From Myxococcota bacterium (GTDB lineage Bacteria > Myxococcota_C > UBA6777), in the NCBI GenBank assembly GCA_023150835.1, contig JAKLKB010000041.1, positions 11,102 to 75,101 of the forward strand: 64,000 bases of DNA, given 5' to 3'. How positions within the stretch are numbered: the first letter of the stretch is position 1; each line of letters begins with the position of its first letter. Of this stretch, positions 29,683-58,053 are shown one piece after another. Made by a program: the position numbers and the translations under genes. Under the pieces are notes generated by a model, which saw only the letters and a program-made list of their open reading frames with translations, was not told the DNA's origin and did not search any database.

Positions 29683-30333
29683 ATGCACACACCTCAAGCT
29701 TCTCAGACTCCCATCGACGCTGCACGCCAAGCCCATCGGCATTTTTTGAACCGATACTACGGCATCTCGCGGCATTTCTACGATCTGACTCGAAAAGCCT
29801 TTCTGTTTGGAAGAGACAGCCTTCTGACCGAACTTGCGCTCGACACCACATGGCGCTCTCTTGTCGAGATCGGCGTCGGAACAGGCCGAAACCTCCGCGT
29901 CTTGCATCATCTCCGACCCGATGCAAAGTTCGGTGGCATCGACGCTTCCGACCAGATGCTACAACACGCACGCACCCGTTGCCCTTGGGCGACCTTTGCT
30001 CACGGATTCGCCGAAGATGTCGATTACCTCGCTGCCTTTGGCCAAGCCCCCGATCGGATCCTCTTCTCGTACTGCCTTTCGATGTTTCAAGATCCGCGCA
30101 CCGCGCTCGAACATGCACGCCAACAGCTCGCTCCCTTCGGCAAGATCGCGATCGTGGACTTTGCGGATCTCGGCGGCCTTCCTCGGATCGCTCAAGAATC
30201 GCTGCGTCGGTGGCTCAGCCTGTTTCATGTCACCCCCCTCCAAACCTCCCTATTCGACGGCCTCCCTCACACCTTACGCTTTGGACCCACGCGCTACTAT
30301 CTCTGCGCCACCCTCCCACGTGACGACCACTAA
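29683..30333 (+). CDS. btaB: BtaB-like SAM-dependent methyltransferase
   Basis: A 216-residue class I methyltransferase. YYGISRHFYDLTRKAFLFGR is the family hallmark near the N-terminus, SLVEIGVGTGRNLRVL is SAM motif I, and GIDASDQML and VDFADLGG follow in order. BtaB trimethylates diacylglyceryl-homoserine to give the betaine lipid DGTS, a phosphorus-free membrane lipid often made under phosphate limitation. It sits directly behind the btaA remnant as in other betaine-lipid operons. The gene is intact while btaA seems not to be, so pathway activity is doubtful. Confidence 0.8.
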   Translation: MHTPQASQTPIDAARQAHRHFLNRYYGISRHFYDLTRKAFLFGRDSLLTELALDTTWRSLVEIGVGTGRNLRVLHHLRPDAKFGGIDASDQMLQHARTRCPWATFAHGFAEDVDYLAAFGQAPDRILFSYCLSMFQDPRTALEHARQQLAPFGKIAIVDFADLGGLPRIAQESLRRWLSLFHVTPLQTSLFDGLPHTLRFGPTRYYLCATLPRDDH

Positions 30334-30337
30334 TCTT

Positions 30338-30460
30338 TATACGAGATCCGCAAGGTGTGTGATCGGAAACAGGGTGGGGCAGCCCTGTGTGGCAGCCCAA
30401 GAGTCAGGCGGTTCGCAAACCGCACCTACATCTTATGATCACACACCCTGCGGATCTCAT
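30338..30460 (+). repeat. Dispersed repeat R2, copy 1 (terminal inverted repeats)
   Basis: This copy of about 123 bp opens TATACGAGATCCGC and closes GCGGATCTCATA, giving roughly 25-bp imperfect terminal inverted repeats that continue through GTGTGTGATC. Inside are CAGGG/CCCTG and GGCGGTTCGC/AACCGC stems. The copy ends exactly where a 42-bp tandem array begins. Confidence 0.85.
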
Positions 30461-30670
30461 AGTGATCCTCGGAAAAGGCACTTCGATGTGCTTTTTGGGA
30501 GAAGTGATCCTCGAAAAAGGCACTTCAATGTGCTTTTTGGGAGAAGTGATCCTCGAAAAAGGCACTTCAATGTGCTTTTTGGGAGAAGTGATCCTCGGAA
30601 AAGGCACTTCAATGTGCTTTTTGGGAGAAGTGATCCTCGAAAAAGGCACTTCAATGTGCTTTTGGGGAGA
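30461..30670. repeat. Five exact-length 42-bp tandem hairpin units
   Basis: Units start at 30461, 30503, 30545, 30587 and 30629, each opening AGTGATCCTCG and ending GGGAGA. Each can fold: AAAAA-GCAC, loop TTCAAT, GTGC-TTTTT, closed by CTC/GAG. Units differ at only one to three positions. The array abuts R2 copy 1 and is separated from copy 2 by GTTG. Although 42 is a multiple of three, no credible protein is encoded. Confidence 0.9.
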
Positions 30671-30674
30671 GTTG

Positions 30675-30797
30675 TACGAGATCCGCAAGGTGTGTGATCG
30701 GAAACAGGGTGGGGCAGCCCTGTGTGGCAGCCCAAGTATCGGGCGGTTCGCGAACCGCCCCTACGTTATGCGATCACACACCCCGCAGATCTCGTAT
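30675..30797 (+). repeat. Dispersed repeat R2, copy 2
   Basis: This is a near twin of copy 1 in the same orientation. It begins TACGAGATCCGC and ends with GCAGATCTCGTA. The inner palindrome GGCGGTTCGCGAACCGCC is perfect in this copy. Confidence 0.85.
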
Positions 30798-31028
30798 AAA
30801 CCCACAACGCTGCTTGAACGATCGAGGACACGGGGTTTTTGTTCACAAGCCATTTGGCGAACCACCCATCCTCTCGATCACCACCTGCTTTTCTGCCTAT
30901 GCCGCTTGAAAAATCGCACACGAGAAAACAAAGCGTGGTATACAGGCCCCGAATATCTTCCCGTTCGCGGCCCTTCGGCTTTTGGAGCATAACGATACGC
31001 CGCAGCGATACAGGTAGGAGCGGCGCAG

Positions 31029-33212
31029 ATGCCAAGTTATCTCATCCGAACACACCGTGGTTTAGAAGCGGTCGTCAGCGAAGAAGTCCGTCGATTGGGC
31101 GGAGAGGTCCAAAAAGAACTCGCAGGAACCCTGATCATCGAAGCCGACGAAGAGGCGTTGTACCGTATCGCCTTGGAGATGCGAACCGCGCAACGCCTGT
31201 ATCTTCGGCTGCATAGCTTTCGCTGGAAACACGAAGACGACCTCTATCTCGAAGCCCAAAAAGTCGACTGGGGCCTTCATCTCAAAGCCAGTGGTCGGCT
31301 GCGCTGCGAAGCATATCTCCACGAAAGTGCGATGCAAAACAGTCACTTCGCAGCTTTACGGCTCAAAGACGCGATCGTCGATCAATTTTCCGACGATCAA
31401 GGCCGTCGCCCCGACGTCGACCGCGACAATCCCGATATCCTTGTCGTCTTGCAAGCACGCCATCAAGAAGCCGAGATCCTTCTGGATCTTGGAGGTGGGC
31501 CGTTGCGCTCATTTCCAAGCTGGCAAGGGCAGCTTCACAAAGGACAAAGCTGGCAGCACGCCGCAGCGATGCTCTCACAGGCAGGATGGGCCGATATCTA
31601 TCCTCACGGTGGAGCGGGGATCTTCTTGATCGAAGAAGCGTGGCCGCTTGCCGCAGAAGCCCTGCTCGAAGCGATCCACCTCACCCCCGGACTTTTGCGC
31701 GGAGAGATGGGGCTGCCCCGATGGTTGGGATGCAACAAGCCCCGTTGGCGCAAAGCATGGGAAGAGGCCGAAGAACGGCATAAACAAGCCCTCGAATCGT
31801 GGGAACACACGATCCATGCCTATGGCACATCTCACGCGGGTGTTCGGGGCTTACGCGACTTTTTGCGCGATCTCCGTCTGTCCCCCTTTCTTCGGCCTCG
31901 CTTCCTCGAATGGCCCGATCTTTCGTCGATTCTCGAACCTCACACCGATGCCTCCATCCCGGGCTACTTCTGCGCAGAGTTCCCTGCCTACGAAGAACTC
32001 CATCTCGCACAAGCCGTCCATCGGTACGCTTCTTTGGGCCAAGCCCTCAAACGCCACCTTCCCGGATGGAACGCCACGATCTACACCCCCCAACCTGATC
32101 TCGGCCATCGTCTGAGCCTTCGCGCCCACAAAACACGACGCCACGCATGGCAAGAGGCCGAATACACCGCCCTTTCCATCACCATCCCCGCCCACACCGA
32201 CGACGCGCAAAGCCAAGATCCCGCACCCACCTACGTTTGGCAACACCACGAAGGCGCACAGATGTTTGCCAACCGCTTGCGCAAAAATCTCGACGGCCTC
32301 AAAGGCTGGCGCAAACAGCAAGAGGTCACCTGTTATCGGGCTTATGACGCTGAGATGAACGAATACAACGCAGCCATCGACGTGTATGAAGATCACGCCA
32401 TCATCCAAGAATACCAAGCCCCCTCCACCATAGACGCCCGCCGCGCCGAACAACGCCTGCACGATATCTTGCTCGTTGCTCCCGATATCCTCGATATCCC
32501 ACGCGAACACATCTATTTCAAACAGCGCCGCAAACAAAAAGGCACAAACCAATACGAAAAACAGGCCGAAGAACAAGACTTTACCGAAGTCCGCGAAGGC
32601 GATCTGCGCTTTCTGGTCAACCTCACCGATTATCTCGATACCGGCTTGTTTTTGGATCACCGCACCGTCCGACGCTGGCTCCACAAAGAAGCCCAAGACA
32701 AGGACTTTTTGAATCTGTTTTGCTACACAGGCACCGCAACGGTCCATGCAGCCGCAGGCGGCGCACGCAGCACGTGCAGCGTCGACCTCTCCAAAACCTA
32801 CCTGTTTTGGGCGCGTGAAAATATGAAGCACAATGGCTTTACACGCTCGAATCACCGCTACATCCAAGCCGACTGCTTGGTCTGGCTCGAACATACCGAA
32901 GAAACCTACGATCTGATCTTCCTTGATCCACCGACCTTTTCGAACTCAAAGCGCATGGAACAAACCCTCGACGTCCAACGCGACCACATCGCACTGCTTC
33001 AACACGCGCTGCGTTTGTTGCGTCCCGACGGACTCTTGCTGTTTTCCACCAACAAACTCGATTTCCAACTCGACACCGACGCGCTTCAAGCCCTTGATAC
33101 CACCGTCGAAGATGTCACCAAAGCCTCCATCCCACGAGACTTTCAGAGATCACCCAAGATCCACCGATGTTGGCGCATCCGACACGCCCACTCTTCGACA
33201 CGTCGCAAATAG
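31029..33212 (+). CDS. rlmKL: RlmKL-type 23S rRNA methyltransferase with a degenerate RlmL half
   Basis: A 727-residue protein that aligns along its length with bifunctional RlmKL. Residues 1-155 are the ferredoxin-like/THUMP region. In the RlmL domain (about 160-400) motif I, normally DPMCGSGT, reads YPHGGAGI, and the catalytic NPPYG reads EFPAY; both are inconsistent with activity. The C-terminal RlmK domain (about 430-727) is intact: LNLFCYTGTATVHAA, CSVDLSKTYL and IFLDPPTFSNSKRM. It should therefore make m7G2069 but probably not m2G2445 (E. coli numbering). GGAG precedes the ATG. The loss of RlmL function is inferred from motifs. Confidence 0.88.
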   Translation: MPSYLIRTHRGLEAVVSEEVRRLGGEVQKELAGTLIIEADEEALYRIALEMRTAQRLYLRLHSFRWKHEDDLYLEAQKVDWGLHLKASGRLRCEAYLHESAMQNSHFAALRLKDAIVDQFSDDQGRRPDVDRDNPDILVVLQARHQEAEILLDLGGGPLRSFPSWQGQLHKGQSWQHAAAMLSQAGWADIYPHGGAGIFLIEEAWPLAAEALLEAIHLTPGLLRGEMGLPRWLGCNKPRWRKAWEEAEERHKQALESWEHTIHAYGTSHAGVRGLRDFLRDLRLSPFLRPRFLEWPDLSSILEPHTDASIPGYFCAEFPAYEELHLAQAVHRYASLGQALKRHLPGWNATIYTPQPDLGHRLSLRAHKTRRHAWQEAEYTALSITIPAHTDDAQSQDPAPTYVWQHHEGAQMFANRLRKNLDGLKGWRKQQEVTCYRAYDAEMNEYNAAIDVYEDHAIIQEYQAPSTIDARRAEQRLHDILLVAPDILDIPREHIYFKQRRKQKGTNQYEKQAEEQDFTEVREGDLRFLVNLTDYLDTGLFLDHRTVRRWLHKEAQDKDFLNLFCYTGTATVHAAAGGARSTCSVDLSKTYLFWARENMKHNGFTRSNHRYIQADCLVWLEHTEETYDLIFLDPPTFSNSKRMEQTLDVQRDHIALLQHALRLLRPDGLLLFSTNKLDFQLDTDALQALDTTVEDVTKASIPRDFQRSPKIHRCWRIRHAHSSTRRK

Positions 33213-57939: not shown

Positions 57940-58053
57940 TACGAGATCCGCTCGTTGTGTTACCGTAAAAACGTAGGGGCATCCCCCTGTGGCTGCCCAA
58001 GAATCGGGCGTCTACAAATGATGCTTTGTGTACACCTCTCACGGATATCGTTT
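57940..58053 (+). repeat. Dispersed repeat R2, copy 3
   Basis: It opens TACGAGATCCGC and closes CGGATATCGTTT, with the inner GGGGCATCCCCCTGTGGCTG and CCCAAGAATCGGGCG. It is about 114 bp and more diverged than copies 1 and 2. It lies between the stop of the cysteine-repeat lipoprotein and the start of the PEGA-like gene. Confidence 0.75.

Follow-up and report, generated by a model that had tools for sequence, protein, structure and literature searches.

Probable meeting of two independent intergenic repeat families, a miniature inverted-repeat element and a 42-bp minisatellite, in a Myxococcota genome

In the window (the whole 64 000-nucleotide stretch of DNA analysed; contig C196, 11102-75101), a methyltransferase-like gene (29683-30333) is separated from an rlmL-like gene (31029-33212) by a region that contains two copies of a short repeat, R2, with a tandem array between them (Table 1). 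A repeat search reports the R2 copies as direct repeats of 125 nt, 89% identical, in the same orientation and with a spacing of 335 (30337-30461 and 30672-30796). Each R2 folds strongly (z -6.7 to -9.1 against shuffles). In the array, TRF finds 5.0 copies of period 42 at 97%, with near-identical units lying head-to-tail. The preliminary description of this locus had five 42-bp units between two R2 copies of one orientation, with the array starting at the last base of the first copy and ending 4 nt (GTTG) before the second; this is confirmed, and all of its coordinates are correct. The source genome, G000, is a 7.56-Mb draft in 239 contigs, G001 is a second genome of the same genus, and the comparison set comprised five genomes of the phylum. 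Statistics for R2 and for arrays were obtained from 1.24 Mb of G000, read as a sample.

Table 1. Features of the R2-array-R2 locus, and the further R2-family copy in the window
Feature	Position	Strand	Remarks
TNA-type flank TTA	30337..30339	.	Outer end of R2 copy 1; partner flank differs
R2 copy 1, 122-bp-type miniature inverted-repeat element	30340..30461	+	TIR TACGAGATCCGC...GCGGATCTCATA
R2 copy 1, internal hairpins			GGGGCAGCC...GGCAGCCC and GGCGGTTCGCAAACCGC
42-bp minisatellite, five tandem units of AGTGATCCTCGRAAAAGGCACTTCRATGTGCTTTTTGGGAGA	30461..30670	+	Same family at G000:C123, C55, C180 and G001:C513
GTTG spacer, last unit to R2 copy 2	30671..30674	.	Not a TNA
R2 copy 2, 122-bp-type miniature inverted-repeat element	30675..30796	+	
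TNA-type flank TAA	30797..30799	.	Outer end of R2 copy 2; differs from TTA at 30337
Third R2-family copy in the window	57940..58052	+	113-bp type, lone, without array

The ends of R2 are conserved elsewhere: the terminal inverted repeat (TIR) TACGARATCCGC has 432 exact matches in G000 and 107 in G001, against two in each for the reversed control. BLAST searches with the composite region likewise find dozens of R2-like places in both genomes, and three genomes that represent two other genera of the family contain no match to R2. The 1.24-Mb sample contains 100 TIR pairs up to 600 bp apart, mostly 110-129 bp. R2 copies are mostly 112-122 bp long and non-coding, with inverted arms of approximately 25 nt that are 86-92% complementary, and their interiors fall into two types of about 113 and 122 bp. 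In this sample, 64 copies have a TNA triplet on both sides, and the two triplets are identical in 50 of these (17.4 expected; P = 4e-17), while the next base beyond the TNA shows no matching (18/100 copies). R2 has therefore transposed, as a non-coding unit, with duplication of a 3-bp TNA target. Short and non-coding, with TIRs, a target-site duplication and many dispersed copies, it has the features of a MITE; statistically, R2 is shown to be a non-autonomous, TIR-bounded MITE that duplicates its TNA target. Chains are common, in that 19 of the 93 extracted copies lie head-to-tail with another copy, sharing a TNA or directly abutting, and some neighbouring copies in such chains are local duplicates (99% and 93% identical).

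Correia and ERIC/IRU elements are small TIR repeats of the same kind as R2, and RUP and Correia elements are tied to IS630-type TA targets. R2 differs from these last two in duplicating TNA (3 bp). Its likeness to RUP extends to a length of about 110-125 bp, long TIRs, the lack of coding capacity, hundreds of copies, restriction to a genus and a strong hairpin (PMC3049150). The interior of R2 contains two REP-like hairpins, GTAGGGGCAGCC...GGCTGCCC and GGGCGGTTCGCGAACCGCCCCTAC. These resemble GTAG-tagged REPs (PMC3733652), with GTAG-GGGCAGCC...GGCTGCCC and an inverted counterpart, GGGCGGTTCGCGAACCGCCC-CTAC; a 26-bp part of the second hairpin is also found alone in G001 as exact matches. Unlike those REPs, R2 is bounded by its own TIRs, and there is no clear RAYT in the genome, since a search for one returns just two marginal, partial Y1_Tnp matches. 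No autonomous R2 transposase or parent insertion sequence was found among the five DDE_Tnp_1 loci, none of which is bounded by R2 TIRs, or among the long TIR pairs of the 1.24-Mb sample, where the two longest examined with equal TNA (L115 and L219) enclose ordinary host genes. R2 itself is a MITE family of an ordinary sort, newly seen here, whose hairpins resemble GTAG-REPs. Its description is the more useful by-product of this analysis: the family is confined to the genus, numbers hundreds of copies, clearly duplicates its TNA target, carries REP-like hairpins inside and often shows tandem expansion of its interior.

In the five phylum genomes, searches by sequence and by covariance place the 42-bp family at four G000 loci and a single G001 locus; no further array loci rise above noise in these genomes, whether the covariance search uses structure or sequence only. 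Searching for the unit alone thus finds three further arrays in G000, at C123, C55 and C180. The C123 array begins about 66 nt after hsdM and runs off the contig end. That in C55 runs off the contig start and lies upstream of a calcium/sodium-exchanger-like gene, and in C180 about 1.6 diverged units lie between an APP1-like and a deaD-like gene whose ends converge. (Gene names at the array loci were assigned by reading translations, not by family search.) The diverged units of G001:C513 lie at the APP1-like locus orthologous to C180, and the family therefore dates back at least to the divergence of the two species; the two orthologous arrays differ in sequence. There is no R2 at the visible edges of the C123, C55 and C180 arrays, of which the first two run off contig ends, so the 42-bp family exists without R2. 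The G001:C513 array has an oppositely oriented R2 copy at its left edge, and this copy is flanked by a TTA duplication of its own. Sequence similarity between the unit and R2 is not above that of shuffles. The 42-bp array is a separate, low-copy minisatellite, independent of R2.

Searches for the exact unit pattern in database contigs gave no match, although this genome or very near records may be left out of that set, and blastn found no match to the region in plasmids and phages. A single 19-base match to the unit pattern in viral contigs, without tandem copies, is attributed to chance. Coding use of the unit (14 codons, open in two plus-strand frames in the window) is not supported, because the C55 variant stops one frame and the units differ between orthologous loci. 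The APP1-like gene ends in ...RYITH* at the array in G000 (C180) and in ...RYIAQHLRQ* in G001 (C513), where R2 and another repeat follow the stop. It seems that this gene lost part of its 3' end, together with intergenic repeats, through a deletion or exchange at the array.

In G001, the methyltransferase gene (C456; 95% identical DNA) is followed by other intergenic repeats, as the rlmL-like gene (C104; 98% identical protein) is preceded by them. The two orthologues are on different contigs, with synteny broken in that draft, and the composite is not seen beside either. With synteny broken and other repeats at both places, no clean empty site can be read in G001. Around 30801-30850, the window also contains a further dispersed intergenic repeat, GTGGGGTTTCACCCCACACCCCACAAGGGAGC...AACACGGGGTTTTTTGT, present again at L102:100-260, L106:2150-2330 and L071:1360-1500. 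This repeat adjoins R2 copies in both species and lies at the synteny break of the two flanking genes in G001.

The arrangement is best explained, with good probability, as two independent kinds of intergenic repeat, the R2 MITE and the 42-bp minisatellite, having met at this locus without forming a new element; in crowded intergenic space, such a meeting looks like an ordinary accident. R2 copies 1 and 2 are sisters on the tree (support 0.90), and are 89% identical to each other versus at most 82% to other copies. They agree throughout their first 62 nt, and the 13 differences between them are confined to the last 60. On either side the array meets R2 at one and the same unit position, at or beside a TGA that is one of the two TNA sites in each unit, so that a whole number of units separates the copies. 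Slippage and unequal exchange may have altered both the number and the sequence of units in the 42-bp block. R2 would then have inserted at a unit's TGA, within the array or at its edge, as the shared phase of the junctions suggests. The second R2, which has the same orientation and unit phase as the first and is its closest relative, is most likely a local duplication generated by unequal exchange between units, or the product of gene conversion after a second insertion. Unequal exchange following one insertion would leave R2, a whole number of units and R2 in a single orientation, and gene conversion could have produced the identical 62-nt half. The flanking TNA duplications may later have decayed, or vanished with outer units. 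Two R2 insertions into homologous TGA sites, instead of duplication, are a possible variant of this route. The composite is probably without function beyond that of any intergenic repeat; if transcribed, it would fold into stable hairpins where the methyltransferase-like gene has its 3' end. The locus represents a small case of intergenic repeat pile-up, in a genome that is large and rich in repeats and belongs to a poorly sampled lineage.

Several observations weigh against this explanation. No array units lie outside the two R2 copies, and the duplication route thus needs a later loss of outer units. Divergence is 11% between the R2 copies and a few percent between the units, so the explanation has to assume that the array was homogenized. 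At the inner junctions the sequence reads GTG and TTG, neither a clean TNA. R2 touches an array three times over the five array loci (twice here and once at G001:C513), and within the 42-bp family alone these contacts look like more than chance, in a count made post hoc. Finally, the genome is a draft of 239 contigs, and for two of the other arrays the contig stops before the array does.

It is unlikely that the array instead serves as a functional multi-hairpin RNA or, beyond the upstream gene, as a tandem transcription terminator at the 3' end. Each unit is able to fold (-15.1 kcal/mol on the plus strand), as the preliminary description had noted, and does so better than shuffles (z -3.3); its layout of A-tract, GCAC...GTGC and T-tract also speaks for such a role. 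Arrays lie at the 3' ends of the methyltransferase-like gene, of hsdM (C123) and of the APP1-like gene facing the deaD-like gene (C180), and a terminator role at gene ends is possible. However, the stem is not maintained among relatives. In the few sequences available, no pair is changed on both sides, 5 of the 12 stem pairs depart solely by unpaired cells, and several are broken in the C55 and C180 units, while the G001 units favour a different hairpin, TGATCTGC/GCAGATCA. The proposal of a multi-hairpin RNA is thus without covariation support. Rfam and tRNA searches gave no match, and a simple scan finds no terminator-like site in the window region versus 1.6 in shuffles; the same scan of C123 returns just two sites, both on the minus strand. 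The C55 array, moreover, is upstream of a gene.

It is also improbable, at about one chance in ten in our judgement, that a single 42-bp spacer between two R2 copies of a head-to-tail chain expanded on the spot into the array, which was later copied elsewhere. The frequency of direct abutment between R2 copies, and of tandem expansions within R2-type TIR pairs (nine in 1.24 Mb), would suit such growth. The units are not R2-derived, however, and their family is also present at loci without R2 and at the orthologous G000/G001 locus.

It is very doubtful that the two R2 copies jointly mobilize the 42-bp array as a composite miniature transposon, in the way that paired insertion sequences do. The copies share an orientation, their outer TIR ends are intact, TNA-like triplets occur at both outer edges and the G001:C513 array also has R2 at its left edge. 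Those outer triplets differ, however (TTA on the left, TAA on the right), so there is no target duplication outside the composite, such as flanks both elements of a composite transposon, whereas the two triplets agree in 78% of the R2 copies that have TNA on both sides. Taken alone, copy 1 (TTA/GTG) and copy 2 (TTG/TAA) also lack one. No second R2-array-R2 occurs among the 359 array loci of the 1.24-Mb sample, and there is no R2 at the C180 array or at the left edges visible for C123 and C55. In the sampled placement test, for which genes were called by a simple long-ORF rule, intergenic arrays are no closer to R2 than under random intergenic placement: the array edges near R2 number 2 (1.2 expected) within 12 bp, 6 (3.9) within 50 bp and 8 (6.7) within 100 bp. 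Of the single composite miniature element suggested in the preliminary description, what stands is R2 as a terminal-inverted-repeat miniature element and the 42-bp tandem family at other loci; the composite as one element does not.

That description knew of no element with this structure, but two described elements have tandem repeats between flanking modules. BOX of Streptococcus pneumoniae, boxA-(boxB)n-boxC, has a variable boxB array between boxA and boxC, which are different half-modules, and recurs whole about 125 times (PMC3049150). BrickBuilt of Porphyromonas gingivalis is a MITE with an internal minisatellite and an element-specific leader and tail, at 19 loci (PMC4596501). Points in common with BOX are the intergenic position, a tandem array of variable make-up with a module on either side, MITE-like TIRs and target duplications, and frequent clustering with other repeats; the composite differs in that each of its flanks is a complete TIR element that exists by itself in hundreds of copies, and in that the arrangement was observed a single time (PMC3049150). 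With BrickBuilt it shares an intergenic, spacer-free tandem minisatellite bounded by repeat-element sequence, but here the array family and R2 occur separately (PMC4596501). Both are defined by recurring as a unit, and the composite does not do so; a flank-array-flank arrangement is not repeated at several loci, as it is for BOX. That R2 preferentially enters 42-bp arrays and then spreads or amplifies them, R2-(42 bp)n-R2 being a young, forming BOX-like element whose ends at C123 and C55 would also be R2, is highly improbable.

Tandem arrays also occur inside R2-type TIR pairs, with nine in 1.24 Mb. At L119:1139-1590, L126:11365-11807 and L119:15942-16355, the interiors are expanded (26 bp x14, 58 bp x4.9 and 66 bp x3.5, respectively), and these are MITE-internal minisatellites derived from the REP-like hairpin. 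Tandem-repeat density is very high throughout the 1.24-Mb sample, in which the 359 array loci cover 47 kb and many lie inside coding sequence.
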